Assembly (NCBI GenBank): GCA_025931135.1
Contig: JAICNR010000006.1
Span: 1 to 38,687 of the forward strand
Source: Gemmatimonadota bacterium
Lineage (GTDB): Bacteria; Gemmatimonadota; Gemmatimonadetes; JACCXV01; JAHWKZ01
Direction of reading: 5' to 3'
Length of the DNA: 38,687 nt
Position numbers and translations under genes: made by a program. The notes under the pieces were generated by a model. The model saw only the letters and a program-made list of their open reading frames with translations, was not told where the DNA came from and ran no database searches. Below, in pieces: positions 5,554-37,482 of this stretch. The stretch's first letter is position 1. Each line of letters begins with the position of its first letter.

Positions 5554-5674
5554 GAAATCGACACTTGTCGGACCCCCACGACACGCCGGGTCGCGGGGCT
5601 TTCGCTCCGTCGCGCGGGGATTAGTTTAGGCCGACCCGCTGAGTAACCCGAGCCAACCCGCCGGCGAGGACCGT

Positions 5675-8589: not shown

Positions 8590-8631
8590 CCCCGCAAGCT
8601 AACGCGAGCGCCCGTGTGAGGTCCGCGCGCG

Positions 8632-8659
8632 TTGCCGCGGCACAACGGCGGCGTATATT
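8632..8659 (+). promoter_or_regulatory. Probable promoter of tRNA-Arg
   Basis: TTGCCG (8632-8637), a 16-nt spacer and TATATT (8654-8659), ending 19 nt before the mature tRNA 5' end. The -10 box matches the consensus at five of six positions. Confidence 0.6.
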
Positions 8660-8678
8660 TGTCCTCCCCGCCCGACGT

Positions 8679-8755
8679 GCGCCCTTAGCTCAATTGGATA
8701 GAGCGTCAGACTACGGATCTGAAGGTTAGGGGTTCGACTCCCTTAGGGCGCACCA
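8679..8755 (+). tRNA. tRNA-Arg (anticodon ACG), CCA encoded
   Basis: A complete cloverleaf. Acceptor GCGCCCT pairs with AGGGCGC; the anticodon stem is TCAGA/TCTGA around loop CTACGGA, with ACG at 8713-8715; the T-arm holds GGTTCGACTCC; the discriminator is A and CCA is encoded at 8753-8755. A34 must be deaminated to inosine to read CGU/CGC/CGA, and the deaminase gene tadA lies in this window. The 3' end is also an apparent integration target (8745-8757). Confidence 0.97.
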
Positions 8756-8757
8756 CT
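8745..8757 (+). repeat. attL-like direct repeat (tRNA-Arg 3' end)
   Basis: AGGGCGCACCACT: the acceptor 3' strand, discriminator, CCA and two following bases. It is identical to 10220-10232. The tRNA-proximal copy keeps the tRNA gene intact. Confidence 0.75.
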
Positions 8758-8865
8758 TACCGCAGCGCAAGCAGCCAACGTCCGCACAGCGGATCGTATC
8801 GGCTGCCCAGATCTTCGTCGAGAATTCGCCCCAGAACTTCGACACTTTCCTCCACCGTCCCGGTG

Positions 8866-9210
8866 TCAAGAATAGCGTGTCTTCTCTCGTCTCCTGGCCT
8901 GCCACGCCGCATAGTTCTCCTGCGCCCGAACAAGCTCGCCTTCAACCATCCCGACCCACTCACGGGTGGCGTACCGTGCTGCACGGGGCTGCAACGCCAG
9001 TGTGAACAGATAGATCTTGCTCTCCCACCAGTCGGTGATCGCTTCGGTTGTGCCCGGGGCGGGTTCTTCCATCTTCCGCGCCTGATCCACGGCTCGCCCA
9101 AGCTGCTCCCACAGCTCCACTGCTTCCCGACGATTCTCTCCGACCTCTGCGTCCCCGATCGCTTGGCTGAGTCGCAAGACGACATACCCGAGTTTGGCCA
9201 TTGTCAGCAT
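8866..9210 (-). CDS. Hypothetical helical protein, island cargo
   Basis: A 114-residue protein starting MLTMAKLGYV at 9210, with a purine-rich GGGAGG stretch upstream; M4 (9201) is an alternative start. It is rich in charged, helix-forming residues (A-V-E-L-W-E-Q-L-G-R-A-V-D-Q-A-R, V-E-G-E-L-V-R-A-Q-E-N-Y) with no signal peptide or membrane segment. I do not recognise a family. After its TGA, another minus-strand frame stays open and coding-like to a TAA at 8757-8759, with segments such as V-E-V-L-G-R-I-L-D-E-D-L and C-G-R-W-L-L-A-L-R. The gene may therefore have been about 150 codons long and suffered a frameshift near 8880. That tail ends within the attL repeat, 2 nt past the tRNA CCA. Confidence 0.55.
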   Translation of the reverse strand: MLTMAKLGYVVLRLSQAIGDAEVGENRREAVELWEQLGRAVDQARKMEEPAPGTTEAITDWWESKIYLFTLALQPRAARYATREWVGMVEGELVRAQENYAAWQARRREKTRYS

Positions 9211-9391
9211 CGTCCCAACCCTCCCATCCTCTCGCGAGTCTCCGGCGCCGCGTGCATGCAGCATAGCCAGACAGCGAGTTCACGATCTGTCAGCGGTCTG
9301 ACCGGGAAAGACTCATAATCCAGTCCCCCGGTGCCACGCGCTCAACTGACCCGGTTGCATAACCACTAGCCTTGGCTATTTATTGGCGTCC

Positions 9392-10167
9392 ATGAAGCTC
9401 GAGTGCTACGTACTGAGCGCCGGAGACATCGACATCCGGCCAGCCAGCAATCGGCGGGAATGGATGGACGCCACTCCCGATCGCTACGCCTACCGTTGCC
9501 TCCCACTGTCGATCGCCAACGCGCACGGGTGGGTGATCTGCTGCGGGGGGGGTTTCCGTGTGGAATGGAACGGTGGAAGTGACCCGCGGGATGTTCAGGT
9601 CTCACTCGCTGGCGATGGAGAGGTGAAGGTGGAGGGGCATTTCGGCTCTGGGATCGTCACGATCTCGATACCGGCCATGTTCCGCACGGAGGCCGACTAC
9701 AACCTCTGGGTATCCGGCCCTCCGAACAGCTTCAAGGACGGAAACATCCCTTGTCCGCCGTGGTGGAAACGGACTGGATGCCATACTCCTTCACGATGAA
9801 CTGGAAGATCACAAGACCAAATCATCCCATCGGGTTCGAGAAAGGAGAGCCCTTTTGCTTCCTCTTCCCCGTGAAACGCGGGTTGGTGGAGCAGGTGGAA
9901 CCCGCTCTGAGGGACCTGGACGAAGACGCAGAGTCGAAGCGTCAGTTCAAATATGCGGGAAGGCTGCGCAAGTTCCTTTCGGATGTTAAGCAGATAAAGA
10001 AAGACGCTACGCCGGACCCCAAAGCCGAGCGAGCCCTCCGGTTCCAGCGCTGGTACATGCAGGGGACCTTGCCTGACGGTACCGGCGCCTTCGAGGGCCA
10101 TCAGAAGAGCTTGGAGATCAAGCCGTTCACGGACCTGCGGAATCGCGAGACCCGAGCGCAGCCCTAA
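9392..10167 (+). pseudogene. DUF6065 family protein, disrupted by a frameshift
   Basis: Two frames together make one DUF6065-like protein of about 258 residues. Positions 9392 to about 9740 encode the N-terminal half (M-K-L-E-C-Y-V, R-E-W-M-D-A-T-P-D-R-Y-A-Y-R-C-L-P, G-P-P-N-S-F-K-D-G). From about 9745 the -1 frame carries the rest (P-L-S-A-V-V-E-T-D-W, S-F-T-M-N-W-K-I-T-R-P, F-E-K-G-E-P-F-C). The match resumes exactly where it stops, so one base appears missing around GACGGAAACATCCC (9736-9749). This is either a real frameshift mutation, a sequencing error, or less likely programmed slippage. DUF6065 has no known function. There is no signal peptide. It lies inside the tRNA-Arg island, on the strand opposite the other cargo gene. 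Confidence 0.75.
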
Positions 10168-10219
10168 GGGATCGTCGCTTCATCCCGTCGTCGACCTTCC
10201 ATACCTCCAGCCACTCCTG

Positions 10220-10232
10220 AGGGCGCACCACT
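10220..10232 (+). repeat. attR-like direct repeat, island distal end
   Basis: AGGGCGCACCACT, identical to the tRNA-Arg 3' end copy at 8745-8757. It lies 52 nt after the DUF6065 stop and 24 nt before the glucan synthase ATG. Confidence 0.72.
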
Positions 10233-10256
10233 ACGTGAGCGCCTAACTTCCGCTCG

Positions 10257-13200
10257 ATGGCTCTCGCCGCACCACAAACCGGCCTCGAGCCGATCCGCGC
10301 CGAGATCTTCGGGCCCGAACGGCTGGCTCAGCACGCGCATGCGCTGGCCCTCTCGCAGCGCGTCCATCCCCAACGCAGACGCAAAGGCGTGCCGCTCCTC
10401 GATCGCTTCGAGGACAACGCACGCGCTCTCCTCGGCGCGTACCGCGCGCTCGCGCGGGAGATCCAGAAGGACCAGCCGATCTCGCCGACAGCCGAATGGC
10501 TGATCGACAACTTCCACATCATCGACGAGCAGCTGATCGAGGTCCGCGAGGCGTTGCCGTCGGGGTACTACCGTGAGCTCCCCAAGCTCGCCACCGGGCC
10601 GCTGGCCGAGCACCCCCGCGCCTACGGGATCGCGTGGGCCTTCGTGGCGCACACCGACAGCCGTTTCGATCCCCATCTGCTCGAGCTCTTTTTGCGCGCG
10701 TATCAGGAGATCGCTCCGCTTACGATCGGCGAGCTGTGGGCGGTCCCGGGTTTCCTGCGGCTGGTGCTCGTCGAGAACCTGCGCCGGCTAGCCCAGGGAG
10801 TCGTCGAGTCGCGGCGCGCCCGGGCCCGCGCAGGCGCCCTCGCCGATCGGCTTCTGGCGGAGGTCGACCACCCCGAGGACGCACTCGAGGAGCTCGAGCT
10901 CTACGAGAATCGCCCGCTCGATCGGACGTTCGTCGTCGAGATCGTCCAGCGGCTCCGGGACTCCGACCCGGCGGCGAGCCCGATCGTGGGATGGCTCGAG
11001 CGGCGCCTCGCGAAGGACGGGACGCTCGCGGAAGTGCTGGTGCGTGAGGAGCACGCGAGCCAGCTCGCCGCTCACGCCACCGTGGCCAACATCATCACGA
11101 GCATGCGCCAGATGTCGGGCTTCGATTGGCAGACGCTGTTCGAGGACGTCAGCCTGGTCGAGGCCGCCCTGCGCGCGGACACGACCGGCGTCTACCCGCG
11201 CATGGATTTCGCGACGCGTGACGCGTACCGGCACGCGATCGAGGAGCTTTCGCGCGGATCGGGCACACCGGAGACCGAGGTTGCCGACGCGGTCGTGGCG
11301 CTCTCCGCCGAGGCTGCGCGACGATCCGACGAGGAGGGGGCCGGCCGGGACGAGCACCTCGGTTACTGGCTCGTCGACAACGGACGCCGCGTGTTCGAGA
11401 AACAGCTCGGATTCCGCGCTCCGGTCGGCAATTGGCTGCGGCGGGCCTATGTCGCGCTCGCCACCCCGGGCTATCTGGGGACGATCGCGCTCGTCACGGC
11501 ATTCCTCCTGATGCTCCTCGTAGCCTATGTCACGCTGTTCGATCAGAACTGGCTCACGGTCGTCGCCCTCGCGTTGCTGGCGTTGATCCCGGCGACCGAC
11601 CTCGCGATTGCGGTCGTCCAGCGCGACGTGAGCGAGCTGCTGGGGCCCCGGCGCCTGGCCAAGCTCGATCTGAAGGACGGCGTGCCGCCCGAGCTCCGGA
11701 CGCTGGTGGTGGTCCCCACCATGCTCACGGGCCCGCGTGGGGTCGGGCAGCAGATCGACCAGCTGGAGCGGCACTATCTCTCGAACTCAGAGGGCGAGCT
11801 CGGGTTCGCGCTGCTGTCGGACTGGCGAGACGCGGTGTCCGAGGTCCTCCCCGACGACGAAGAACTGCTCGCGCTCGCCGCCGACGGCATCGAGCGGTTG
11901 AACCGGGTGTACGGCCCGGCGCCATGGGGCGGTCCCCGATTCCTTCTCCTCCATCGAAGGCGGCAGTGGAATCCCTCGGAGGGGATGTGGATCGGCTGGG
12001 AGCGGAAACGAGGCAAGCTCCACGAGCTGAACCGGCTATTGCGAGGCGCGACGGACACCTCGTTCGTCCTGGACCCGGATCAGGCGGCGGACCTTCCGCC
12101 CGAAGTCCGCTACGTGATCACCCTGGACGCGGACACGCGGCTCAGCCCGGCCGCCGCCCATCGACTGGTCGGCGCGATCGCGCATCCGCTCAATCGCGCG
12201 CACTTCGACCGCGCCGCGGCGCGGGTCACCTCGGGATATGGCATCGTGCAGCCGCGCATCACCCCGATGATCCCCCATGCCGGCGAGCGGACGCTCTACC
12301 ACCGCATCTTCGCGGGCCCTACCGGCATCGATCCCTACAGCGCGGCCGTATCAGACGTCTACCAGGACTTGTTCGGCGAAGGCATCTACGTGGGCAAGGG
12401 GATCTACGACGTCGACGCGTTCGAGGCCGCGCTGGACGGCAGGGTCCCAGAGAACCGGCTCCTATCGCACGACCTGTTCGAAGGCACCTGGGCTCGGTGC
12501 GGGCTCGCCACCGACATCGAGCTATTCGACGACTTCCCCTCCAACTACGAGACGAGCGCCCGCCGCGTCCATCGCTGGGCTCGTGGCGACTGGCAGCTGC
12601 TGCCCTGGATCCTCGACGCGGCGCCGGCCGTGAACGGTCAGCGGGTCCCGTCGTCGATGCACGTCATCAGCCGCTGGAAGATGGTCGACAACCTGCGTCG
12701 GACGCTGTCCCCACCGTCGACCTTCGCTCTCCTCGTGGTCGGATGGCTCACGCTCCCGGTTTCGCCTCTTCTCTGGACCACGTTCGTCGTCGCCACGATC
12801 GCGATGCCGGCCGCGGTCCCGGTCGTGGCCGGGCTTTTCCCACGACGCAGGGGGATCGCAAAGCGGTCTCACATCCGCGGCGTCCTCTTCGACGCGATCG
12901 AGGCCGCGAGCCGCGTAGGACTGGCCCTGGTTTTCCTCCCGAATCGCTCCGTTCTCATGACGGACGCCGTGGCGCGAACGCTCTGGCGGATGACAGTGAC
13001 GCGCCGCAAGCTCCTCGAGTGGGTGCCCGCCGCGCTCGCCGGGAAGGATTCCATGCACGACCTGCCATCCGCTTACCGCTCCATGTGGCGGGGCGTGGCT
13101 CTCGGGCTAGCCGCGGCGGTGGCCGCGCTCGCCCTTCGGTCGGAGGCGTTCCACCTGGCGCTGCCGATGCTGGCGCTCTGGCTGGCGTCCCCGGCGATCG

Positions 13201-16200
13201 CGCTCTGGCTCAGCCGGCCCATGGAGGATGCACCGGGCGAGGAGCTGCTCCCCCGGGAGAGTCACGACCTCACTCTGGTCGCCCGGTCGACATGGCGGTA
13301 CTTCGAGACTTTCGTGGGGGAGTCGACAAACTGGCTTCCGCCCGACAACCTCCAGCTCGACCCCGAACCCATCCTGGCGAAGCGTACGTCGCCGACCAAC
13401 GTGGGCGTGTACCTGCTCTCCGTGGCCTGCGCGCGGGACTTCGCCTGGATCGGCGCCAGCGAGGCGATCGATCGTGTCGAGCGGACATTGGACACTCTGG
13501 ATCGGCTTCAGAGGTTTCACGGTCACTTCCTCAACTGGTACGACGTCGAGCGCCTCGAACCTCTGGAGCCGCGGTACGTCTCAACGGTCGACAGCGGCAA
13601 CCTGGCGGGACACCTCCTCGCCCTCTCCGAGTCACTCCGCGACCAACTCGCCGGCCGGAGGCTCGTGGGGGAGGCGCTCGCCGGTATCGGCCACGCGATG
13701 ACGCTCGCGGAAGAGGCGGTGGCGGGAGCCTCAGCGGTGCGACAGGGGACCGTCACCCGCCGGGAGGTCGACGCAGCGATCACCGCCGTGCGCCGGGCGC
13801 TGCAGCCGGAATCCGCCGTGGACCAGGAGGACCGGCTGGCCGAGCTCGACGAGGCCGCCGCGGACCTCGTGGACGTCGCGCGGGTCTTCGTCTCCGAATC
13901 CCCGGACGGCACCGCGCGCGACTTCGCCTTCTGGGCCGAGGCGGTCCGCTCCGCCGTGCAGAGCCACCTCCGGGACCGCAACGCACTCGCTCCCTGGGAG
14001 CGGCTGCTCGGCTCACCGCCTGTGAATGAAGCGACCGCAGACGGGCCGGCGGAAGACGCCATCCGCCGCCTCCGCGATGTCCTGGGTCGTGCCGCGCCGG
14101 AGGAAGCAGCGGCGGCAGTTCGCGAGGAGCTCGACGCGCTCAACGCCCGCGCAGGGGAAATCGGCGACTCCGCGGGAGAGGCTCGGGCGATGTGGGTCGA
14201 TCGGGTTCGGGCCGCCGCCACCGACGGCGACCGTGCGGCGAAGGCCCTCCGCCAGCGCGCCCTCTCGTTGGCGGTGCGCGCGGAGCGGCTCGCGGGCGCA
14301 ATGGACTTCGAATTCCTCTACGATCCCATGCGCAAGCTCTTCCCGATCGGCTATCGGGTCACGGACAACCACTACGACGCGAGCTACTACGATCTACTGG
14401 CGTCCGAAGCCCGGCAGGCGAGCCTGGTTGCGATCTCCAAGGGCGACATCCCGATCGAGCACTGGTTCCGGCTCGGTCGTCCCGCTACGCCGGTGGGCCG
14501 CGACGCAGCTCTCCTGTCGTGGTCGGGTTCGATGTTCGAGTACCTGATGCCCTATCTGGTCATGGACGCGGCGCCCGACACGCTCATCGAGCGCACGCAG
14601 CGTCTGATCGTCGAGCGGCAGATCCGCTACGGCGCCGATCGGGGCGTGCCCTGGGGGATCTCGGAATCGGCGTACAACGCCCGTGACCTGGACCTCACCT
14701 ATCAATACTCGCACTTCGGCGTGCCGGGCCTCGGGCTTGCGCGCGGCCTGTCGGAGGACCTCGTCATCGCGCCATATGCTACCGCTCTCGCCGCTATGAT
14801 CGCGCCGCGTTCCGCTCTTCGGAACTTCCGCCGCCTGGCGGAGGAAGGAGCACGCGGCGGAATGGGGTTCTACGAGGCGATCGACTACACCCCCGAGCGC
14901 GTCCCCCAGGGCAGTCGGTCGGCCGTGGTGCGAGCGTACATGGCGCATCACCAGGGAATGACGATCCTGGCGCTGACCAACGTGCTTTTGCAGGGCATCC
15001 TTCGCCGACGCTTCCATGCCGTCCCGATCATCGGCGCGAACGACCTCTTGCTGCAGGAGCGCGTACCGCGCGATGTCGCGGTACAGCGGCCGCGGGCCGA
15101 GGAGGTGCATGCGGTGCGTCACGTCCGCGAGGTCGTGCCGACCGTCGAGCGCCGATTCCACTCTCCCCACGAGCGGACTCCACGCACGCACCTGCTCTCG
15201 AACGGCAGCTACACCGTGATGATGACGAACGCCGGGGCCGGGTACAGCCGCCGGCGTGGGATGGCCGTAACTCGCTGGCGAGAGGACGCGACCCGGGACC
15301 ACTGGGGCGCGTTCGTGTTCGTCCGCGACGTGACGACGGGCTCGACATGGTCGGCGGGTTATCAGCCCACGACCGTGGAGCCGGACACCTACGATGTCGC
15401 CTTCACGGAGGATCGCATGGAGATCCGCCGGCGGGACGGCGCGATCGCGACGACCCTAGACGTCATCGTCTCTCCTGAGGACGACGGGGAGCTGAGACGA
15501 GTCACCGTGAAGAACCTCGGATCGCGGGATCACGTTCTCGAGCTGACCACCTACGCGGAGGTCGTGCTCGCGATGCCGGCGGCCGACGCGGCCCATCCCG
15601 CGTTCCAGAACCTGTTCGTCCAGACCGAATACGTCCCGACCTACGGCGCGCTGCTCGCGACCCGCCGGCCACGCTCGGCCGAGGAGGAAACTGTATGGGC
15701 GGTGCACGTCTCGGCAATGGAGGGAAAGTCGCTGGACGCGGTGCAGTACGAGACCGATCGCGCGCGGCTCCTGGATCGCGGCCTCGGCGTGCGCGCCCCC
15801 AGCACGATCGTGGACGGTCGGCCGCTTTCGAACACCACCGGCGCGGTCCTCGATCCGGTTCTCAGCCTCCGTCGCTCGATCCGGCTGCGGCCGGGCGAGA
15901 CCGCGGAGGTGACGTTTTCAACCCTCGTCGCCGATTCCCGCGAGAAGGCCCTGGCTCTCGCCGATAAGTACCACGACCCAGCAACCTTCGAGCGCGAGGC
16001 CGCGCTCGCATGGACTCAGGCCCAGGTGCTGCTCCATCATCTCGGGGTCTCGCAGAACGAGGCCCACCTGTTCCAGCGCCTGGCCAGCCGGGTCCTCTAC
16101 GTCGACCCGACTTTGCGCTCGCCGGCGGCGATCCTGGCGATGGACCGGGGCCAGCGAGCGCTCTGGCGCCATGGGATCTCGGGAGACCGCCCCATCATCC

Positions 16201-19139
16201 TCGCGCGTATCGACCAGATCCGGGACCGCGAAATCATCCGCCAGCTCCTTCGAGCCCACGAGTACTGGGGCTGGAAGGGACTGGCCGTCGACCTGGTGGT
16301 CCTGAACGAGCACGAATTCACGTACAGCGACGAGCTGCAGGACTGGCTGGAGCGGAGCGTTCGCGTAACACGTTCACGCGCTTCCCACGAATCCCACGTG
16401 GGCCACGGCGAGGTGTTCATCCTGCGGGGCGAGCAACTGTCGCAGGAGGATCGGGATCTGATCCGGGCCACGTCCCGCGCCGTGCTGCTCAGCCATCACG
16501 GGTCGCTGGCCGAGCAGCTGGAGTCGGCTCTCAGGGATCAGACCTACGTCGCGACCCCCGCCCAGCCTCCCGTCTCTTCCGAACCCGAAGCCCCTCCGCC
16601 TCGGCTCAAGCTCGCGTTCTTCAACGGCCTGGGGGGATTTGCGGACGGCGGGCGCGAATACGTGATCGTCCTGGGAGAAGGGCAGTGGACGCCCGCACCG
16701 TGGGTCAATGTGGTGGCGAATCCCGACTTCGGGTTCACGGTGTCGGAGTCCGGGTCCGGTTTCACATGGGCGGTGAACAGCCGCGAGAACCGGCTCACTC
16801 CGTGGTCGAACGACCCGGTCAACGATCCTCCGGGAGAGGTCCTCTACGTGCGCGACGAGGACTCGGGGGTGGTCTGGACCCCGACCCCGCTGCCGATCCG
16901 TGAAACCTCCCCCTACGTGGTCCGGCACGGCCAGGGATACACCCGGTTCGAGCACCAGAGTCACGGTATCGCGCTCGAGCTGGTCCAGTTCGTGCCCCTC
17001 GACGATCCGGTCAAGATCTCACGGCTTCACATCCGCAACCTTTCGGACCGTCCCCGACGGCTGTCGATCACCGCGTACGTCGAATGGGTGTTGGGGGTGC
17101 TCCGCGAGTCTTCGGCGCCGTACGTCTGCACCGGGATCGACGAGGAAACGCTCGCCCTGTTCGCCCACAACCGCTGGACGGAGGAGTTCGGCGCGCGGGT
17201 TGCGTTCGCCGATCTCAACGGTCGCCACAGCGAGTGGACCGCCGACCGGGGGGAGTTCCTGGGCCGTAACGGGAACCCCGCCTACCCGGCCGCGATGGAG
17301 CCCGGCCAGGGCCTCTCACAGTCGGTGGGCGCGGGGTTCGATCCGTGTGCAGCTCTGCGACAGACGGTCGCCGTTCCCGCCGGTGGGTCGGCGGAGGTCG
17401 TGTTCCTCCTGGGTCAGGGGGCGAACACAGAAGAGGCGCGGAAGCTGGTGCGCGCGTACCGGGCCGAGAATCTCGATGCGGCGCTCGAGCGCGTCGTGAC
17501 CAGCTGGGACGACGTGCTGGGCACCGTGAAGGTGAGCACCCCGGACGAGTCGATGACGATCATGCTGAACCGATGGCTGCTCTACCAGGCGCTCAGTTGC
17601 CGCGTCTGGGCGCGCTCGGCGTTCTATCAGTCGGGCGGGGCGTACGGTTTCCGCGATCAGCTCCAGGACGTGACAGCGCTCGTCGTAGCGCGGCGCGAGA
17701 TCACACGCGCCCATCTGCTGCGCTGCGCCGCGCGCCAGTTTTCCGAGGGCGACGTGCAGCACTGGTGGCATCCTCCCTCAGGTCGCGGGGTCCGAACCCG
17801 GATCACCGACGATCGGGCCTGGCTGCCCTTCGCACTGATCCAGTACCTGGAGGTCACCGGAGACGACGAGATCCTCGACGAGGAGGTCTCGTTCATCCAG
17901 GGCGGTGAGCTCGAGGAAGGCGAGAGCGAGCGGTACTTCGAGCCCGGGCCGCCCGTCGGAAGTGCCACACTCTACGAACATTGCGCCCGCGCGCTGGACG
18001 TAAGCCTGGGCCTGGGTCCTCACCAGCTGCCGCTCATGGGCGCCGGGGACTGGAACGACGGGATGAACCGCGTGGGCGACGAGGGTCGCGGAGAGAGCGT
18101 CTGGCTGGCGTGGTTTCTCCACTTGACGATGAGCCGCTTCCTCCCCATTGCCCGGGCGCGCGGCGACGACGAGCGCGTCTCGCGCTGGCACGCTTGGCTC
18201 GATGCGCTGGATGACGCGATCGAGCGCGAGGGATGGGACGGAAACTGGTATCGTCGCGCCTTCTTCGACGACGGGACGCCCCTCGGCTCCACCGTCAGCC
18301 AGGAGTGCAAGATCGACTCCATCGCCCAATCTTGGGGCGTGATCTCGGGCGCCGCTCCCCGCGGCCGAGCGGAGCAAGCCATGCGCGCGGTGGAGCAGTA
18401 CTTGATCCGACGCGGTGACGGGCTCGTGCTCCTGTTCACTCCCCCGTTCGATCACTGGGACGTCGACCCAGGCTATATCAAGGGATACCTGCCCGGAGTA
18501 CGGGAGAACGGCGGCCAGTACACTCACGCCGCGCTATGGTCGGTGATCGCCTTCGCGGAGCTGGGAGAGGGTGACAAAGCCGCCGAGCTGTTCTCGATCC
18601 TGAATCCGATCAACCAGACCTCGACGCGTGCGGGCATCTACCGCTACAAGGTCGAGCCGTACGCCGCTGTGGCGGACGTCTACGCGGAGCCGCCCCACCT
18701 GGGCCGTGGAGGATGGACCTGGTACACCGGATCCGCCGGCTGGATGTACCGCGCGGGCATCGAATGGATCCTGGGCTTCCGGCTCCGCGGTCAGGAGCTC
18801 CTGCTGGATCCCTGCATCCCGCGGGACTGGCCCGGCTTCCGGATCTCGTTCGCCTATCACTCGTCTCGATACGAGATCGACGTCGAGAACCCCGCAGGAG
18901 TCATGCGCGGGATCCAGAGCGTAGAGATCGACGGCCGCCCGGCCCCGCTGCGCGCGCGGACCGGCACCGCGAACCCGCGCACGCTTGGGGCCGCGGCGTC
19001 GGGACCGGCGGACGCGGACGATCCGGGGGGCGGTGATCCCTCGCGCACGAGAAGCGAGGCGGGCCGTGACGGCAGCGGCGCGCGGATCCCGCTCGTCGAC
19101 GACGGGCAGTCCCACGCGATCCGGGTGACTCTCGGTTGA
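10257..19139 (+). CDS. Cyclic beta-1,2-glucan synthase (NdvB/ChvB/Cgs type)
   Basis: A giant 2960-residue inner-membrane enzyme that builds and cyclises beta-1,2-glucan for the periplasm from UDP-glucose. The domain order fits Cgs. An N-terminal region holds W-L-I-D-N-F-H-I-I-D-E-Q, and two membrane segments lie at about 405-453. A GT84 glycosyltransferase carries D-A-D-T-R-L near 624 and R-R-V-H-R-W-A-R-G-D-W near 770; further membrane segments lie at about 822-861 and 946-987. A glycoamylase-like domain starts near 1351. A first GH94 N-terminal-type domain begins near 1638 and a second near 2118. The GH94 phosphorylase domain has R-D-Q-L-Q-D near 2465 and G-D-W-N-D-G-M-N near 2597. A low-complexity Gly/Ala/Asp/Arg insert of about 50 residues precedes the C-terminus. 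The ATG is the only start in the open frame and has no clear ribosome binding site. Its stop overlaps tadA. Confidence 0.93.
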   Translation: MALAAPQTGLEPIRAEIFGPERLAQHAHALALSQRVHPQRRRKGVPLLDRFEDNARALLGAYRALAREIQKDQPISPTAEWLIDNFHIIDEQLIEVREALPSGYYRELPKLATGPLAEHPRAYGIAWAFVAHTDSRFDPHLLELFLRAYQEIAPLTIGELWAVPGFLRLVLVENLRRLAQGVVESRRARARAGALADRLLAEVDHPEDALEELELYENRPLDRTFVVEIVQRLRDSDPAASPIVGWLERRLAKDGTLAEVLVREEHASQLAAHATVANIITSMRQMSGFDWQTLFEDVSLVEAALRADTTGVYPRMDFATRDAYRHAIEELSRGSGTPETEVADAVVALSAEAARRSDEEGAGRDEHLGYWLVDNGRRVFEKQLGFRAPVGNWLRRAYVALATPGYLGTIALVTAFLLMLLVAYVTLFDQNWLTVVALALLALIPATDLAIAVVQRDVSELLGPRRLAKLDLKDGVPPELRTLVVVPTMLTGPRGVGQQIDQLERHYLSNSEGELGFALLSDWRDAVSEVLPDDEELLALAADGIERLNRVYGPAPWGGPRFLLLHRRRQWNPSEGMWIGWERKRGKLHELNRLLRGATDTSFVLDPDQAADLPPEVRYVITLDADTRLSPAAAHRLVGAIAHPLNRAHFDRAAARVTSGYGIVQPRITPMIPHAGERTLYHRIFAGPTGIDPYSAAVSDVYQDLFGEGIYVGKGIYDVDAFEAALDGRVPENRLLSHDLFEGTWARCGLATDIELFDDFPSNYETSARRVHRWARGDWQLLPWILDAAPAVNGQRVPSSMHVISRWKMVDNLRRTLSPPSTFALLVVGWLTLPVSPLLWTTFVVATIAMPAAVPVVAGLFPRRRGIAKRSHIRGVLFDAIEAASRVGLALVFLPNRSVLMTDAVARTLWRMTVTRRKLLEWVPAALAGKDSMHDLPSAYRSMWRGVALGLAAAVAALALRSEAFHLALPMLALWLASPAIALWLSRPMEDAPGEELLPRESHDLTLVARSTWRYFETFVGESTNWLPPDNLQLDPEPILAKRTSPTNVGVYLLSVACARDFAWIGASEAIDRVERTLDTLDRLQRFHGHFLNWYDVERLEPLEPRYVSTVDSGNLAGHLLALSESLRDQLAGRRLVGEALAGIGHAMTLAEEAVAGASAVRQGTVTRREVDAAITAVRRALQPESAVDQEDRLAELDEAAADLVDVARVFVSESPDGTARDFAFWAEAVRSAVQSHLRDRNALAPWERLLGSPPVNEATADGPAEDAIRRLRDVLGRAAPEEAAAAVREELDALNARAGEIGDSAGEARAMWVDRVRAAATDGDRAAKALRQRALSLAVRAERLAGAMDFEFLYDPMRKLFPIGYRVTDNHYDASYYDLLASEARQASLVAISKGDIPIEHWFRLGRPATPVGRDAALLSWSGSMFEYLMPYLVMDAAPDTLIERTQRLIVERQIRYGADRGVPWGISESAYNARDLDLTYQYSHFGVPGLGLARGLSEDLVIAPYATALAAMIAPRSALRNFRRLAEEGARGGMGFYEAIDYTPERVPQGSRSAVVRAYMAHHQGMTILALTNVLLQGILRRRFHAVPIIGANDLLLQERVPRDVAVQRPRAEEVHAVRHVREVVPTVERRFHSPHERTPRTHLLSNGSYTVMMTNAGAGYSRRRGMAVTRWREDATRDHWGAFVFVRDVTTGSTWSAGYQPTTVEPDTYDVAFTEDRMEIRRRDGAIATTLDVIVSPEDDGELRRVTVKNLGSRDHVLELTTYAEVVLAMPAADAAHPAFQNLFVQTEYVPTYGALLATRRPRSAEEETVWAVHVSAMEGKSLDAVQYETDRARLLDRGLGVRAPSTIVDGRPLSNTTGAVLDPVLSLRRSIRLRPGETAEVTFSTLVADSREKALALADKYHDPATFEREAALAWTQAQVLLHHLGVSQNEAHLFQRLASRVLYVDPTLRSPAAILAMDRGQRALWRHGISGDRPIILARIDQIRDREIIRQLLRAHEYWGWKGLAVDLVVLNEHEFTYSDELQDWLERSVRVTRSRASHESHVGHGEVFILRGEQLSQEDRDLIRATSRAVLLSHHGSLAEQLESALRDQTYVATPAQPPVSSEPEAPPPRLKLAFFNGLGGFADGGREYVIVLGEGQWTPAPWVNVVANPDFGFTVSESGSGFTWAVNSRENRLTPWSNDPVNDPPGEVLYVRDEDSGVVWTPTPLPIRETSPYVVRHGQGYTRFEHQSHGIALELVQFVPLDDPVKISRLHIRNLSDRPRRLSITAYVEWVLGVLRESSAPYVCTGIDEETLALFAHNRWTEEFGARVAFADLNGRHSEWTADRGEFLGRNGNPAYPAAMEPGQGLSQSVGAGFDPCAALRQTVAVPAGGSAEVVFLLGQGANTEEARKLVRAYRAENLDAALERVVTSWDDVLGTVKVSTPDESMTIMLNRWLLYQALSCRVWARSAFYQSGGAYGFRDQLQDVTALVVARREITRAHLLRCAARQFSEGDVQHWWHPPSGRGVRTRITDDRAWLPFALIQYLEVTGDDEILDEEVSFIQGGELEEGESERYFEPGPPVGSATLYEHCARALDVSLGLGPHQLPLMGAGDWNDGMNRVGDEGRGESVWLAWFLHLTMSRFLPIARARGDDERVSRWHAWLDALDDAIEREGWDGNWYRRAFFDDGTPLGSTVSQECKIDSIAQSWGVISGAAPRGRAEQAMRAVEQYLIRRGDGLVLLFTPPFDHWDVDPGYIKGYLPGVRENGGQYTHAALWSVIAFAELGEGDKAAELFSILNPINQTSTRAGIYRYKVEPYAAVADVYAEPPHLGRGGWTWYTGSAGWMYRAGIEWILGFRLRGQELLLDPCIPRDWPGFRISFAYHSSRYEIDVENPAGVMRGIQSVEIDGRPAPLRARTGTANPRTLGAAASGPADADDPGGGDPSRTRSEAGRDGSGARIPLVDDGQSHAIRVTLG

Positions 19140-31750: not shown

Positions 31751-32287
31751 TCAGTAGTGACAGACCGAACAGTCGTCGGAGGCTCCGCGATCCCGATGGC
31801 ACGTCACGCACCAGCCCATCGTGAGCGGCGCTACGCGCGAGACCTCGTCCATCGCGCCGACGTTCCCGTGACACTCCGCGCACGTCACTCCCGCGCGAAC
31901 ATGCGGCTTGTGATTGAACTGAACGAACGCCGGCACGCTGTGCACCCGAACCCAGGGCACGGCCGTGGAATCGGCCGCGAACCCCAGCAGCTTCTGGATC
32001 TCGGTCCGGAACTCATCGGTCGTCCCGGCCACGAAGCGGTGGCAGCCCATGCACGTCCCGACCGGAGGGATGCCGGCTTCCTCAGAAACGTTCGCCGAGT
32101 AGTGGCAGTACGCGCAGGGAATGCTGTCGATTCCGACGTGGACCGAGTGCAGGAAGCGAATCGGCTGGACCGGAGTGTCTTCCCGGGCTATCTGCGCCTT
32201 CCACCCGGTTCTTTCGCAGGCGGACGCCCCAAAGACGAGCAGGATCGGCAGAATCGACCGTCGCCAACCAGACGCGTGTATCGGCAT
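31751..32287 (-). CDS. actA: Alternative complex III subunit ActA, pentahaem cytochrome c
   Basis: A 178-residue protein with an N-terminal hydrophobic anchor (I-L-P-I-L-L-V-F-G-A-S-A-C; the Cys is a possible lipid site). It carries five C-x-x-C-H haem sites in order: C-A-Y-C-H, C-M-G-C-H, C-A-E-C-H, C-V-T-C-H and C-S-V-C-H near the C-terminus. Extra His residues in H-S-x-H and H-K-x-H pairs can serve as distal ligands. This fits ActA of alternative complex III, which usually has five haems. It is the first gene of the operon. Confidence 0.93.
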   Translation of the reverse strand: MPIHASGWRRSILPILLVFGASACERTGWKAQIAREDTPVQPIRFLHSVHVGIDSIPCAYCHYSANVSEEAGIPPVGTCMGCHRFVAGTTDEFRTEIQKLLGFAADSTAVPWVRVHSVPAFVQFNHKPHVRAGVTCAECHGNVGAMDEVSRVAPLTMGWCVTCHRDRGASDDCSVCHY

Positions 32288-32392
32288 GCCTTCACCGGCG
32301 CGAGGTGAACATGGACGCGGACGTCGATGCTGGTGGAGCGCCCGCTCATTGGTCAGGCGGGGACGGTCGATCTCGCTCGAGGAGCGCCGAGA

Positions 32393-32420
32393 AATATGCT
32401 TGAGACGTCAAGGGTGTCAA
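32393..32420 (-). promoter_or_regulatory. Probable promoter of the act-cta operon
   Basis: On the minus strand TTGACA (32415-32420), a 16-nt spacer and CATATT (32393-32398). This gives a start near 32386 and a leader of about 100 nt before actA. A second TTGACG overlaps just downstream. The tRNA-Glu island's distal repeat (32440-32455) ends 20 nt upstream of the -35 box. Confidence 0.6.
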
Positions 32421-32439
32421 GGGCCTATACCGGCGCGAA

Positions 32440-32455
32440 TTGGTGGCCCCAACGG
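32440..32455 (-). repeat. Distal att-like direct repeat of the tRNA-Glu island
   Basis: TTGGTGGCCCCAACGG on the plus strand, identical to 35280-35295. The following AACGAAACTCC weakly resembles the tRNA T-loop (GATTCGAACCC), so this may be a decayed remnant of a longer tRNA 3' end. Confidence 0.75.
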
Positions 32456-32622
32456 AACGAAACTCCGAGCGGCATCCCGGCGGAATCTCTGATCATATCG
32501 GCTCTGGCAAGGCCATCTCGAAGAATAACCGCCCTTGTGCCGATCCCGCCTGGAGTCGAGCCAGAGAGGCGCTTGCTCTCCCGCCCTTTACTCCCGCCCC
32601 CGTCAACTCCGATCTTCTTGCC

Positions 32623-35271
32623 ATGTCTCACCCCACAGGCGTGGTCGCGTTCATGTTCACCGACATCGAAGGCAGCACGACGGCGTGGGAGCGCGATCGC
32701 GCCACGATGCAAGCGGCGCTCGTGGATCACGACCGGATCGTGCGGGCCGCAATCGAGCGAGATCACGGATACATCTTCAAGACTGTGGGGGATGCCTTCT
32801 GCGCGGCCTTCGCAGGGTGCCGCGAGACGGTGTCCGCCGCCCTGGCGATTCAACGCGACCTCTCCGCCCATGATTGGGGAATCTCTCTCCCCCCCACGGT
32901 GCGCATCGCGATCCACGCCGGAGAGGCCGACGAGCGAGACGGAGACTACTTCGGGACGAGCGTGAACCGGGTGTCGCGGCTGGTCGCACTCGGTCATGGC
33001 GGACAGATCCTCCTGTCCCAGACGGCCCGCGACCTCACGCGCGACGACCTGCCGCGCGACGTCACGCTGGACGACTTGGGCGAGCACCGCCTCAAGGATC
33101 TCCGCGAGCCCGAGCGGGTCTACCAGCTAGTCCATCCCGATCTTCCGAGCCGGTTTCCCGCGCTCCGGTCGATCGACCATCTGCCACACAACCTGCCGAT
33201 CCAGCTCACGAGCTTCGTCGGGCGCGAACGCGAGATCGCCGAGATCCGGGCGATCATCCCCGCCAATCGGTTGGTGACGCTCACTGGCTCTGGCGGAAGT
33301 GGGAAAACTCGAATCGCCTTGCAGGTCGCGGCAGAACTCATCGGCACGTTCCCCGACGGAACGTGGTTCGTCGACCTGTCGCCGCTGACGGACCCCGCTC
33401 TGATTCCTCAGACGGTGGCACAAGTGCTGGGGGTGCGCCCCATACCCGGACGGGAGATGAGCGAAGTCCTTACGAGTTACCTCGCGCAGCGGTCCCTCAT
33501 CGTCCTCCTCGACAATTGCGAGCACCTGGTCGAGGCCGCAGCCGAGTGGAGCGAGGGGGTGCTGAAGCAGGCGCGGAACGTCAGGATCCTGGCAACCAGC
33601 CGCGAGGCCCTGGGAACGACCGGAGAGGTCATACTAAGGGTCTCTTCGCTCGCCGTACCGGAGGCGGGGCACGAGGGATCCACCATTCCTCTCCACGACG
33701 TCGACCGTTACGAGGCCGTACGGCTCTTCGCGGAACGAGCGGCGCTGGTCGTTCCCGGGTTCAGGATCGACGATGCCAACGCCGCTGCTGTCGTCCAGAT
33801 CTGCCGGCGATTGGACGGGATCCCACTGGCGATCGAGCTCGCGGCCGCCCGTGTCAGGCTCTTGACCCCGCAAGAGATCGCGGCTCGAATCGGCGATCGC
33901 TTTCGCCTATTGGCCGGGGGCCGCCGCGCCCTCTCACGCCACCAGACGTTGCGCACCGCCATCGATTGGAGCTACGACCTGCTCGATGACGAGGAGCGGA
34001 AGCTCTTTAGGAGGCTTTCGGTCTTCACCGGCGGCTGGACGCTGGAGGCGGCCGAAACGGTGTGCGAGGATGGCGGAGACGTGTTCGATCTTCTAACGCG
34101 TCTCGTCGACAAGTCGCTTGTCGCCGTCGAGCGAACCGAGACCAGCGAAACGCGGTACCGGATGCTCGAGACGACACGGCAGTATGCTCAGGACAAGCTC
34201 ATCGAAGCCGGCGAGACGGCTGAGCTGATGGCGCGACACGGACAGTGGTGCCTCGACCTGGTGCGGCGCTATGCGGATAGCCGCCGCGGCTCGGAGGAAG
34301 AGATCCACACGCGCCGTCTGAGTCGCGACTATGAGAATGTCCGCGCTGCGCTGGAGTGGAGCCTGGCGAGCGAGGAGACCGCCGCGATGTCCTGGGAGGC
34401 CGTTTCTCGGCTTCCGTTCTACTGGTACCGGAGAGGTCTTCATGCCGAAGGGATCGAATGGATAGAGCGAGCGCTGTCGATCTCCGGAACGTTGCCTCTG
34501 ACCACTCATATCGAGCTCCATTGCGGGTTGGCCACGCTCCATCTCTTCCACGGGGACTTCGCGCTAGCCCGGGACCACGGAGACGAAGCTCTCGCACTAG
34601 CGCGGGAGACCGGCGACGAGCAGAGCCTGCTCGCGGCGCTTACGACGGTAGCTAGGAACGGGACTTGGAGCTCCGAAGAACAGGGAGTCCGAGAGGCGAT
34701 CGCGATCGGGGAAGAGGGCCTCGCTCTGGCTCGGAAGACCGGGGACGAGTTCCATCGATCGATCCTGTTGACCAATCTGGGCGAGGGGTTTCGAACCCTC
34801 GGCGACCTCGAAAGGGCCTTCGAGGTCAACCGCGAGTCCCTGGAGACCAGACAAGGCAGCGCGCGGGTCAGCAACCTGTACAACCTCGGTCACATCGCCC
34901 TCGAGCTCGGTGACGAGCAGCAAGCGGACGAGCGTTACGCGGAAGCGTACCGAGTTGCCCGCGAGTTCCGCGATCCGATGGGCCTCGTGAACCAGATCGG
35001 CGCGATCGCTCAGCTCTCGGCATTTCGTGGGCACCACGATAAAGCCGCCCGGCTTTTTGGAGCGTTCGAAACACACCTGGACCGAATGGGCATCGCAGAA
35101 ACCCCGCCCGACCGCCGCACTCGTGAGCGGTTCCTCGTGATCAGTCGCGACGCGCTCGGCGTGGTCGAGTTCGGTAGAGCATGGGAGGAAGGAGGCGCGA
35201 TGACGGTGGAAGAAGCGCTTGCTTTAGCTTATCAGGACCCGCTCGGCCGCGAGTCGGCTCCGGAAGGTTGA
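32623..35271 (+). CDS. Adenylate cyclase - STAND (NB-ARC-like) ATPase - TPR protein
   Basis: An 882-residue cytoplasmic protein. Residues about 5-170 are a class III nucleotide cyclase with metal ligands D14 (F-T-D-I-E-G-S-T) and D57 (V-G-D-A-F). Purine-selecting K53 and D108 suggest ATP, and transition-state N115 and R119 (V-N-R-V-S-R) are present, so it looks active. Residues about 190-520 are a STAND ATPase: F-V-G-R-E-R-E, P-loop G-S-G-G-S-G-K-T (222-229), Walker B V-L-L-D-N-C-E (294-300) and the L-P-L-A-I-E-L-A-A-A-R-x-R-L motif. TPR-like helices follow to about 850. The usual C-terminal LuxR DNA-binding domain of related regulators is absent. It probably couples sensing by the repeats to cAMP production; the signal is unknown. 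The ATG lacks a clear ribosome binding site. Confidence 0.9.
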   Translation: MSHPTGVVAFMFTDIEGSTTAWERDRATMQAALVDHDRIVRAAIERDHGYIFKTVGDAFCAAFAGCRETVSAALAIQRDLSAHDWGISLPPTVRIAIHAGEADERDGDYFGTSVNRVSRLVALGHGGQILLSQTARDLTRDDLPRDVTLDDLGEHRLKDLREPERVYQLVHPDLPSRFPALRSIDHLPHNLPIQLTSFVGREREIAEIRAIIPANRLVTLTGSGGSGKTRIALQVAAELIGTFPDGTWFVDLSPLTDPALIPQTVAQVLGVRPIPGREMSEVLTSYLAQRSLIVLLDNCEHLVEAAAEWSEGVLKQARNVRILATSREALGTTGEVILRVSSLAVPEAGHEGSTIPLHDVDRYEAVRLFAERAALVVPGFRIDDANAAAVVQICRRLDGIPLAIELAAARVRLLTPQEIAARIGDRFRLLAGGRRALSRHQTLRTAIDWSYDLLDDEERKLFRRLSVFTGGWTLEAAETVCEDGGDVFDLLTRLVDKSLVAVERTETSETRYRMLETTRQYAQDKLIEAGETAELMARHGQWCLDLVRRYADSRRGSEEEIHTRRLSRDYENVRAALEWSLASEETAAMSWEAVSRLPFYWYRRGLHAEGIEWIERALSISGTLPLTTHIELHCGLATLHLFHGDFALARDHGDEALALARETGDEQSLLAALTTVARNGTWSSEEQGVREAIAIGEEGLALARKTGDEFHRSILLTNLGEGFRTLGDLERAFEVNRESLETRQGSARVSNLYNLGHIALELGDEQQADERYAEAYRVAREFRDPMGLVNQIGAIAQLSAFRGHHDKAARLFGAFETHLDRMGIAETPPDRRTRERFLVISRDALGVVEFGRAWEEGGAMTVEEALALAYQDPLGRESAPEG

Positions 35272-35279
35272 CCCCGGTG

Positions 35280-35295
35280 TTGGTGGCCCCAACGG
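35280..35295 (-). repeat. tRNA-proximal att-like direct repeat (tRNA-Glu 3' end)
   Basis: On the minus strand CCGTTGGGGCCACCAA: the end of the T-stem, acceptor 3' strand, discriminator, CCA and one more base. Identical to 32440-32455. Confidence 0.78.
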
Positions 35296-35356
35296 GATTC
35301 GAACCCGTGTTTTAGCCTTGAGAGGGCTACGTCCTAGGCCACTAGACGATGGGGCC
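35281..35356 (-). tRNA. tRNA-Glu (anticodon CTC), CCA encoded
   Basis: Acceptor GGCCCCA pairs with TGGGGCC; the anticodon stem is TAGCC/GGCTA around loop CTCTCAA, with CTC at 35322-35320; the T-arm ACGGGTTCGAATCCCGT is present; the discriminator is A and CCA is encoded. Decodes GAG. The 3' end forms one repeat of the adjoining island. Confidence 0.97.
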
Positions 35357-35424: not shown

Positions 35425-36444
35425 TTACTCGATCTCCCCTGCCCCCTCGGGGCGCCGCTTCTCCGAGTACATCCGATGGTCCGCTTCGGCGAGCTTCTCG
35501 TCGACGTTCTCCCCCGGATTCCGCACCGCAAGCCCCATGGAGACGCCGATTCTGGCGCCGGTGGGCACGGAGGGAGAGCTCTCCAACGCCTCCACCACCC
35601 GTTGCCGGATCCGCCGCGCCGCCTTTTCGGCGCCTTGCGCGTCCGTTTCCAGGAGCACGACCAGAAACTCGTCCCCGCCGTAGCGGATCACCGCGTCGAT
35701 CGAGCGCACGTTCCGTTGCAACGCCTGCGCGAACGCCACCAGGATGTGGTCTCCCTGACGGTGGCCGTACTGGTCGTTGACGAGCTTGAAGTCGTCCAGG
35801 TCCAGCATCAGCAGCGCGAACGGCCGCTCGAATCGCTCAGCGCGGTCCTTCTCCGTTGGCAGGACCCGATCCAGGTATCGTCGATTGTAGACTCCGGTTA
35901 GCGGATCGGTGATCGTCAATCGGTCGAGCTCACCTCGCGCGCGATTGAGCTCGAGCGCGACCGCGAGCTGGCTGGCCAACGCCTGCAGGAGCAGAGCTTC
36001 GTCCTGATCGAAGGCATCGGTCTTGTCGCTTTCGACGTTCAGCACGCCGAGGACGCGGTCGCGGATCTTGATCGGGACCGCCAGCTCGCTCTTCGCCTCC
36101 GGCACGCCCGGCACGTAGCGCTCGTCGTTCCGCACATCGGGGACGTATAGGGGGGTCCCTTCGACCGCCACCCAGCGGGAGATTCCGCGCTCGCCTTTCA
36201 GAGAGATCCGCATCCCGCGGGTGCCGGCGGGATAACCGTGCTCGTCGACGATGACGAGCTCGTCCGTCTGATCGTCGACCAGGAGGATCGCGCAGTTGAA
36301 AAAGTCGAGGACCTTGCGGGCGACTTCGAGCACGACGCGGTAGATCGACCACTCGTCCTCGACGAGGGCCATCTCCTGGCTGAGCTCGCAAAGCGCCCGG
36401 AATCGGTCCGCCCGACTCGGTGTCTCGGCGGTGTCGGAGCTCAC
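35425..36444 (-). CDS. GAF-GGDEF diguanylate cyclase
   Basis: A 339-residue soluble protein. Residues about 15-170 are a GAF sensor domain (S-Q-E-M-A-L-V-E-D, A-V-P-I-K-I-R-D-R-V-L-G-V-L-N-V-E-S), and about 172-335 are a GGDEF domain. The catalytic motif is the intact G256-G-D-E-F260, preceded by the inhibitory I-site R247-S-I-D250 at the correct 5-residue spacing. It should therefore make c-di-GMP from two GTP with product feedback. Y-N-R-R-Y and L-D-D-F-K-L-V-N-D-Q-Y-G-H are present. I chose the GTG at 36444; the frame runs on to a TTG at 36603, but that TTG overlaps the -35 box below and the extra residues look non-coding. The GAF ligand is unknown. Confidence 0.88.
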   Translation of the reverse strand: MSSDTAETPSRADRFRALCELSQEMALVEDEWSIYRVVLEVARKVLDFFNCAILLVDDQTDELVIVDEHGYPAGTRGMRISLKGERGISRWVAVEGTPLYVPDVRNDERYVPGVPEAKSELAVPIKIRDRVLGVLNVESDKTDAFDQDEALLLQALASQLAVALELNRARGELDRLTITDPLTGVYNRRYLDRVLPTEKDRAERFERPFALLMLDLDDFKLVNDQYGHRQGDHILVAFAQALQRNVRSIDAVIRYGGDEFLVVLLETDAQGAEKAARRIRQRVVEALESSPSVPTGARIGVSMGLAVRNPGENVDEKLAEADHRMYSEKRRPEGAGEIE

Positions 36445-36574
36445 GTCGTGGTCGAACGGCGGAAGCGTGGTCGGAGAGGACTGCAGGTGGTGGCCATGGG
36501 TTCCGATCTGGGGATCTGCCCCCGCGACTCCTCTCCCGCGGCTTTCAGGGAATGGCGACCCGTCCGATGGGCGA

Positions 36575-36603
36575 ACGTTACCCACTCCCCGGGACGAGGT
36601 CAA
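36575..36603 (-). promoter_or_regulatory. Possible promoter of the GGDEF gene
   Basis: On the minus strand TTGACC (36598-36603), a 17-nt spacer and TAACGT (36575-36580). It would give a leader of about 120 nt before the GTG at 36444; no riboswitch pattern was recognised there. Confidence 0.35.
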
Positions 36604-36613
36604 CGAAGCGCGG

Positions 36614-37372
36614 TCAGGGGCTGACGGGGCGCGCCTTTTCTTCCAGGTACGCCATCACGCGCCTGGCTTCCTCCTCCGTCACCGGCCTGACGCTCATCAT
36701 CGCCATGTTCGCGCGCATCCTGGCGATTACCGTCGGCCAATCGTCAGCGGTGTGGGCGAGGGGAGACGGCGTCTCGTGGCAGAAGCCGCATCGGCTCTCG
36801 AAGAACTCGGCCTCGGGTCCGGTCCCGAGCTCCTCGGCAGCCGCGACCGGCATCGCGTTCCGTTGCAGATATGCCACCAGGCTGTCGATGTCTTCCGCCG
36901 AGGGGGTCTGCGCGCTCGCCATTCCCGAAAGGAGATACTGGCCCAGGATCCCTCGCGTCATAGGCCCGCCCATCCGGTCGTGCAGCGTCTGGGCTCGCAT
37001 GACCATCCGGCGCATGAGGATGGGCCATTCCTCCGCGGCGTGCATCTGGGGCGCCGGCAGCCAGTGGCACTGGATGCAATAGGCTTGCAGCAGCGAGGCG
37101 CCGCGGGCGTCGGGCTCGGGAAGGTCCGCCAGGTTGAAGTTGGGGGGCGGCAGGCCGGAGCCCATCGAGCTGACCATCCGCCACCGCTGACCTCGATCGA
37201 GACTGGCGGTGGCGATGCCGCCGAGCTCGCTGAGAACGGTATCGACTTCGGCGAGGATCTCCTCGGATTCCCCCTCGACTTGCGAATCCGGTCGTTGCCC
37301 GCAACCCGTGAACAGGATGAGACCGGACAGGAGTGTCCCGACGATCCCTGCGGCGCACCACTTCGAGGCCAT
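36614..37372 (-). CDS. Dihaem c-type cytochrome lipoprotein
   Basis: A 252-residue lipoprotein (L-F-T-G-C24) with two haem sites, C99-I-Q-C-H103 and C195-G-F-C-H199. Each is followed by a W-P-x-x-(I/V)-x-R-M-(V/R) helix, so the two halves are related. Met-rich segments after each site (R-R-M-V-M-R, M-R-A-N-M-A-M-M) may supply distal ligands. The start ATG at 37372 has GGAGGAG just upstream; an upstream in-frame extension is unsupported. The protein is likely a periplasmic electron carrier. The partner is unknown, and the nearby nuoN suggests only a respiratory neighbourhood. Confidence 0.85.
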   Translation of the reverse strand: MASKWCAAGIVGTLLSGLILFTGCGQRPDSQVEGESEEILAEVDTVLSELGGIATASLDRGQRWRMVSSMGSGLPPPNFNLADLPEPDARGASLLQAYCIQCHWLPAPQMHAAEEWPILMRRMVMRAQTLHDRMGGPMTRGILGQYLLSGMASAQTPSAEDIDSLVAYLQRNAMPVAAAEELGTGPEAEFFESRCGFCHETPSPLAHTADDWPTVIARMRANMAMMSVRPVTEEEARRVMAYLEEKARPVSP

Positions 37373-37482
37373 CGACTCCTCCGGCTGGAGGTTACAGAAA
37401 GCGTCTGTTCCAGGGTTTCCCTGCACGGCAGGAACGCGCTGTCGGGAGGTTCTTCAATCTCTGTGCCGGGACTTTCCCCAGG

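Follow-up and report, generated by a model that had tools for sequence, protein, structure and literature searches.

The window analysed here is a 38,687-nt stretch of a Gemmatimonadota metagenome-assembled genome (G000), namely contig 44 of an assembly of 2.43 Mb in 249 contigs that is 81% complete. In it, a complete gene for tRNA-Glu (anticodon CTC) is followed directly at its 3' end by a segment (positions 32440-35279) that holds a single cargo gene, and a copy of the tRNA's 3' end, 2.84 kb downstream of the tRNA, marks the far side of this segment (Table 1). The repeat, TTGGTGGCCCCAACGG, is perfect over 16 bp and its two copies have the same orientation. Fifteen of the 16 bases are the 3' end of the tRNA (the 3' arm of the T-stem, the acceptor arm, the discriminator base and the CCA), and the sixteenth lies one past the CCA. 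An earlier note on this DNA had described such a repeat around exactly one gene, whose stop codon is 8 nt away and which leaves no room for a recombinase. Direct reading of both copies and of the single intact gene bears this out: the stop codon ends at position 35271, and there is no open reading frame (ORF) for a recombinase within 32440-35295. We compared the locus with five relatives: G001 from the same genus; G002, G003 and G004 from the same family; and G005 from a sister family in the same order.

Table 1. Features of the tRNA-Glu locus, with positions in the window.
Feature	Position	Strand	Basis
First gene of the act operon, cytochrome c7 family; conserved flank past the distal repeat	31751-32287	-	ORF list, domain search, comparison with relatives
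act operon promoter: -35 TTGACA (32415-32420), -10 CATATTT (32392-32398)	32392-32420	-	Alignment; conserved in G001 and G002
Repeat copy 2, distal end of the segment, orientation as copy 1	32440-32455	.	Sequence and simulated chance level
Non-coding leader of 167 bp, from repeat copy 2 to the cargo gene	32456-32622	+	Direct reading
Sole cargo gene, 882 aa: class III adenylate/guanylate cyclase, STAND/NB-ARC ATPase, TPR	32623-35271	+	ORF list, domain search, motifs
Repeat copy 1: tRNA 3' end plus one base beyond the CCA	35280-35295	.	Direct reading; pattern search of G000
tRNA-Glu (anticodon CTC), insertion site	35281-35356	-	ARAGORN; Rfam tRNA match in G000
GAF-GGDEF gene, kept upstream of the tRNA in G001 and G003 as well	35425-36603	-	Domain search, comparison
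Cytochrome c gene: beside act in G001 and G002, upstream of the GGDEF gene in the window	36614-37426	-	Comparison

The protein encoded by the cargo gene has the cyclase motifs FTDIEGST, GDAF and VNxxxR as well as Walker A and B motifs, so the gene is apparently intact and no obvious pseudogene. The ORF finder had called the TTG at position 32440 as its start, which is not credible; the ATG at 32623 opens the cyclase domain. This type of gene is numerous in G000, which holds 9 matches to the cyclase-protein query. An anti-phage role for the cargo is not supported: the only matches, those of the ATPase and TPR regions of the cyclase protein and of a methyltransferase, were weak. In G005, a homolog of the window's cyclase starts about 0.15 kb downstream of tRNA-SeC (L094, C342, 1-2613), where the end of the contig hides any distal repeat.

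The repeat occurs just twice in the 2.43-Mb assembly, even with up to one mismatch allowed (pattern search; the 15-mer was likewise found twice). Among 4,500 simulated intervals of equal length (Markov orders 1-3), the longest match to the 3' half of the tRNA was 14 bp, and 8-9 bp was usual. Across 106 tRNA calls from G000 and five relatives, the ordinary longest downstream match for a tRNA 3' half was 8-13 bp. It is unlikely that the repeat in the window arose by chance.

We then compared the 3' halves of tRNAs with their own downstream flanks. The earlier note had proposed a search for further segments bounded by the same repeat; the tRNA-Glu repeat itself is found only at the window locus, but other tRNAs in G000 and G002 have repeats of their own 3' ends. 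In G000, tRNA-Arg(CCG) has a perfect 49-bp repeat that encloses 1.09 kb with one 146-aa ORF, and tRNA-Ala(TGC) has a repeat of 19/20 bp that encloses 2.6 kb with two genes (a glycosyltransferase and a PhyH-cupin protein). At tRNA-Val(GAC), copies of 25/25 and 43/46 lie at +2.6 and +5.1 kb, which gives two cassettes in tandem: the first carries one cyclase-TPR gene and the second carries TauD-like and transporter-like genes. With tRNA-Glu, this makes 4 cassette-bearing tRNAs among the roughly 19 host tRNAs that have at least 2 kb of downstream sequence. In G002, tRNA-Val(TAC) has a 21-bp repeat around 1.2 kb with one methyltransferase gene, and tRNA-Val(GAC) is followed by four stacked cassettes of 0.77, 2.2, 1.9 and 2.1 kb (L207, C24, 12061-18216). 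In total, the two genomes contain ten tRNA-bounded segments at six tRNA sites and in five tRNA species. The cassettes are 0.8-2.8 kb long and carry one or two genes, mostly one. Tandem repeats were seen at tRNA-Val(GAC) (2 in G000 and 4 in G002) and not at tRNA-Glu.

Within the genus, conserved downstream genes lie about 0.85 kb from tRNA-Val in G001 and about 16 kb from it in G000, and no cassettes bounded by tRNA 3' ends were seen in G001. Among three single-contig members of the class (G052, G030 and G010; 116 tRNA calls, some from overlapping regions), we found no arrays, and the sole repeat was a short one at +117 of a tRNA-Ser. A scan of 295 class genomes with the 3' halves of tRNA-Val(GAC) matched only family f1, a pattern too family-specific to be informative about the class. 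Overall, the wider data favor small cassettes of this kind as a class that recurs within the family.

Several neighboring observations concern the same tRNAs. Past the second tRNA-Val repeat of G000 (C138, L161, oriented 5580-16500) lie about 11 kb of accessory genes that are absent at the G001 counterpart; they include another cyclase-TPR gene, an aldo/keto reductase and a glycerol kinase, and their boundaries are eroded. At tRNA-Arg(CCG), two G001 contigs (C17, L177, and C108, L178), which apparently come from two strains, share an 89% identical downstream flank and have different inserts of about 0.5 and 1.1 kb. The larger insert carries a small lipoprotein-like gene, as does the tRNA-Arg(CCG) cassette of G000. 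Near tRNA-Ala, the genes for a radical-SAM protein and a SixA-like phosphatase are adjacent in G001, with the tRNA after them (L182, C180). In G000 (L154, C220, 1446-6184), the tRNA, its two cargo genes and the repeat stand between these genes.

The recent cassettes have perfect repeats of 49-52 bp. In different tRNAs, the long, fresh repeats run from tRNA position 28-32, within the anticodon stem-loop, to 2-3 nt beyond the CCA. Tyrosine integrases with their crossover in the anticodon loop of a tRNA usually leave a block from the anticodon stem-loop to just past the CCA. We read it here as the signature of site-specific recombination targeted to tRNAs. The shorter blocks, from the T-loop or T-stem to the CCA, fit either decay of such a block or a T-loop/3'-end type. 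An origin from a tRNA-derived retro-primer was rejected because the fresh repeats extend 2-3 nt past the CCA into flanking DNA.

Some cassettes also share non-coding ends. In two of those in G002 (V2 and V3), the tRNA-proximal end is shared over about 215 bp (about 82% identity) and the distal end over about 228 bp (about 85%), and the cargo of the two is unrelated (a PD40/TSP3-like protein versus a protein without a Pfam match). Another cassette of G002 (V4) shares part of this proximal end. A c-di-GMP-I-GGC riboswitch (RF03167, 63.9 bits, 14442-14553) lies in the proximal end of V3, and related sequence is present in V2 and V4. We considered repeats of 8-10 bp in the cassette ends (TGGTGCCAAA and GTGCTAGT) as arm-type integrase sites. 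They are no evidence for such sites, because random pairs of 220-nt pieces taken from the window share at least 10 bp about 15% of the time, so these repeats are within chance. Searched by exact pattern, viral contigs contained no match to the cassette end.

Recombinases are scarce in all six of these genomes. A profile search for tyrosine recombinases (PF00589) found one or two proteins per genome in G000-G005, and no serine recombinases (PF00239) were found in any of them. For five full-length PF00589 proteins and one fragment that were scored with NCBIfam, the best models were XerC or XerD, slightly below the curated equivalog cut-offs. The matches in G000 are one XerC and one partial XerD-like protein at a contig end, with no others. 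For comparison, 40 other genomes of the class had 0-51 PF00589 matches, and most had at least 3. No integron integrase was found in G000, and the integron-integrase models scored far below their cut-offs on the Xer proteins. No related element that bears an integrase was seen in the six genomes, and no gene for a phage, an integrative and conjugative element (ICE) or a relaxase was recognized in the short cassettes with perfect 49-52-bp repeats. The main caveat on these absences is that metagenome-assembled genomes are incomplete, with mobile elements particularly prone to be lost in binning.

Beyond the distal repeat of the window lies the act operon (for alternative complex III). Nucleotide homology between the window and G001 ends at about position 32421, just upstream of the act -35 box and about 20 nt from the repeat. 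From the CCA of the distal repeat to this box there are 20 nt, and in G005 a real tRNA-Glu(CTC) stands directly upstream of the act promoter, 25 nt from its -35 box. The similar spacing argues that the distal repeat occupies the tRNA's place in the uninserted arrangement. The empty site that had been predicted, with tRNA-Glu followed by act, is thus seen in the sister family, but nearer relatives have other genes after tRNA-Glu. In G001, nuoN, GGDEF and tRNA-Glu are followed by a TolB-like gene, MarC, a glucoamylase-like gene, cytochrome c and act. In G004, nuoN and tRNA-Glu are followed by BlaI-BlaR1 and cytochrome c; in G003, nuoN, GGDEF and tRNA-Glu are followed by a TPR gene that is truncated at the edge of the contig. 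G002 has cytochrome c ahead of act, and its contig ends before any tRNA is reached. So, the content 3' of tRNA-Glu is different in all four family genomes where the tRNA is seen (G000, G001, G003 and G004); upstream of it, nuoN is kept in all four and the GGDEF gene in three. The earlier note had also named relatives with the cyclase gene at this place and no repeat as a case that would speak against an island. We looked for them, and no relative examined carries the cyclase gene at this site. Also, no second copy of the tRNA-Glu 3' end was found in the relatives, including in the G001 interval, which we checked specifically. The region around the window's tRNA-Glu was rearranged as well, since the cytochrome c gene has shifted to upstream of the GGDEF gene.

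We propose that the segment at 32440-35279 is an old one-gene cassette, lacking an integrase, that was inserted at the 3' end of tRNA-Glu(CTC), much like the units of an additive flexible genomic island or like a cis-mobilizable element (CIME). We put the probability of this at about 0.7. From the repeats at the other tRNAs, we infer that insertion at tRNA-Glu was by site-specific recombination: a recombinase would have joined the chromosomal tRNA-Glu with a DNA circle on which the tRNA 3' end was also present. This would leave the tRNA complete, with the 3' end that was displaced or brought in remaining as the distal repeat. Because the cassette holds no recombinase and XerC/XerD are the only ones detected in the genome, the enzyme would have acted in trans or would since have been lost. 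Where cassettes are stacked, the newest would presumably be the one closest to the tRNA. The window's copy would be old because the identity of its repeats is down to 16 bp, and with only this much left, it is probably no longer mobile. The cargo gene has been kept intact in this old copy, so it is probably under selection. The data suggest that orphan signaling genes can be gained singly at tRNA genes.

Several observations weigh against this proposal. We did not find a relative from the same genus with an otherwise identical but empty site, and the presence of other genes and cytochrome c between the tRNA and act in G001 implies that the local history includes rearrangement. The repeat in the window ranks among the shortest of the cassette repeats that we found, and the GC content of the cargo gene (64.9%) is host-like. 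Furthermore, with G000 in 249 contigs and 81% complete, a helper element could be missing from the assembly.

A larger element with an integrase (an ICE, an integrative and mobilizable element (IME) or a prophage) might instead have entered at tRNA-Glu and been reduced to its two ends and one cargo gene. CIMEs have been described as just such remnants of ICEs or IMEs, with attachment (att) sites and without recombination genes (PMC7563491), and the survival of just 16 bp of repeat indicates age. However, several cassettes whose perfect 49-52-bp repeats mark them as recent are equally short, with one or two genes; independent deletions would not readily give the shared ends of V2 and V3 around different cargo; and no integrase-bearing element was seen in any of the six nearest genomes. 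The short recent cassettes and the shared ends favor a cassette moved in trans, and we consider reduction from a larger element unlikely. Both of the origins named in the earlier note, a cassette moved in trans or an end-stage remnant, survive our analysis; the data favor recurrent small cassettes and stop short of proving mobility in trans.

The other two explanations involve no insertion by a recombinase, and both seem highly improbable. If the repeat were a coincidence beside an ordinary chromosomal gene, then its mere 16 bp and the abundance of cyclase-type genes in G000 would be accounted for, but it exceeds both the simulation maximum and the 13 bp or less seen for most other tRNAs, it sits exactly where homology ends beside the act promoter, and the same structure recurs at other tRNAs with far longer repeats. 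Equally doubtful is that the tRNA region was duplicated in tandem and then partly deleted, leaving a tRNA fragment. The permuted local gene order, with the cytochrome c gene on the other side in the window, would fit this, as would the position of tRNA-Ala and its cargo in G000 between two genes that are adjacent in G001. But random duplication would not stop, in different tRNAs, at the anticodon stem-loop and just past the CCA, as the fresh repeats do, and the content between the repeats is unrelated to the flanks.

The proposed cassette resembles systems that have been described elsewhere. "Candidatus Actinomarinales" have cassettes marked by repeats of tRNA fragments, with no identifiable mobile genetic elements in the genome (PMC7771536), and the additive island of "Candidatus Methylopumilus" (330 bp to 42 kb, 1-63 coding sequences) repeatedly contains the final 20 bp of tRNA-Lys (PMC10872708). 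As in these additive flexible genomic islands, whose cassettes are tRNA-targeted, vary among close relatives and can be as small as 330 bp or one coding sequence, the window has an intact adjoining tRNA, a repeat of its 3' end, and content that differs among relatives. The differences are that our cassettes are from Gemmatimonadota, use five tRNA species and mostly carry one gene each, and that two of those in G002 have conserved non-coding ends around different cargo, with a c-di-GMP-I-GGC riboswitch in one end. CIMEs are integrase-less, flanked by att sites and possibly in tandem, with the classical ones at 1.2-13 kb; by definition they are decayed derivatives of ICEs or IMEs, mobilized by accretion with a related element (PMC7563491). 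The window's segment likewise has att-like repeats on both sides and no genes for recombination or transfer, but no ICE or IME relative that could serve for accretion was found in the six nearest genomes.

Other systems differ in having an enzyme of their own or in their boundaries. The ssrA islands of Dehalococcoides are arranged in tandem, with 20-bp copies of the transfer-messenger RNA gene's 3' end between them, and have an integration module in 16 of 31 cases (PMC3146451). They carry or adjoin the serine recombinases DsiB/DsiA, whereas the targets here are tRNA genes and no serine recombinase could be detected. Tycheposons are elements of 4-200 kb with a tyrosine recombinase (PMC10872708); the window's segment is similarly bordered by a tRNA and carries cargo, but it has 2.84 kb and no recombinase. 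Islands of the P4, ICE or IME type at tRNAs have their own integrase, and the window's segment holds the cyclase gene alone. Clusters of attC sites lacking integron-integrases (CALINs) are tandem single-gene cassettes whose recombinase is supplied in trans (PMC11389934), but the boundaries in the window are tRNA 3' ends rather than attC sites, and no integron integrase was found (no dedicated search for attC was run). In the literature searched on tRNAs, genomic islands and integrases in Gemmatimonadota, no such cassettes appear in titles and abstracts, with most subscription journals outside the search. The style of insertion is already known from other phyla, and the Gemmatimonadota case would add to it.

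What might be new are the G002 cassettes with conserved ends and exchangeable cargo. Tentatively, and with rather low confidence, we suggest a non-autonomous system for a family otherwise without visible integrases. In it, a recombinase encoded in none of the cassettes would add single cargo genes, each between conserved non-coding ends, to stacks at several different tRNAs; this enzyme could be the housekeeping XerC/XerD or a transient helper. Reports of integrase-less tRNA cassettes from several streamlined aquatic lineages have not named a mover. The clean setting here (ten segments at six sites, perfect 49-52-bp repeats, the V2/V3 ends and an XerC/XerD-type background) makes the question of the mover enzyme concrete.

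One more contig of the G000 assembly (C49, L159) has a tRNA-Val(TAC) without an encoded CCA. We set it aside from the G000 count as a likely contaminant, as both of its tRNAs duplicate ones elsewhere in the assembly. It probably comes from another phylum and would then be a separate case of the same phenomenon: two 3'-end repeats, of 48 and 36 bp, enclose 3.4 and 0.5 kb.
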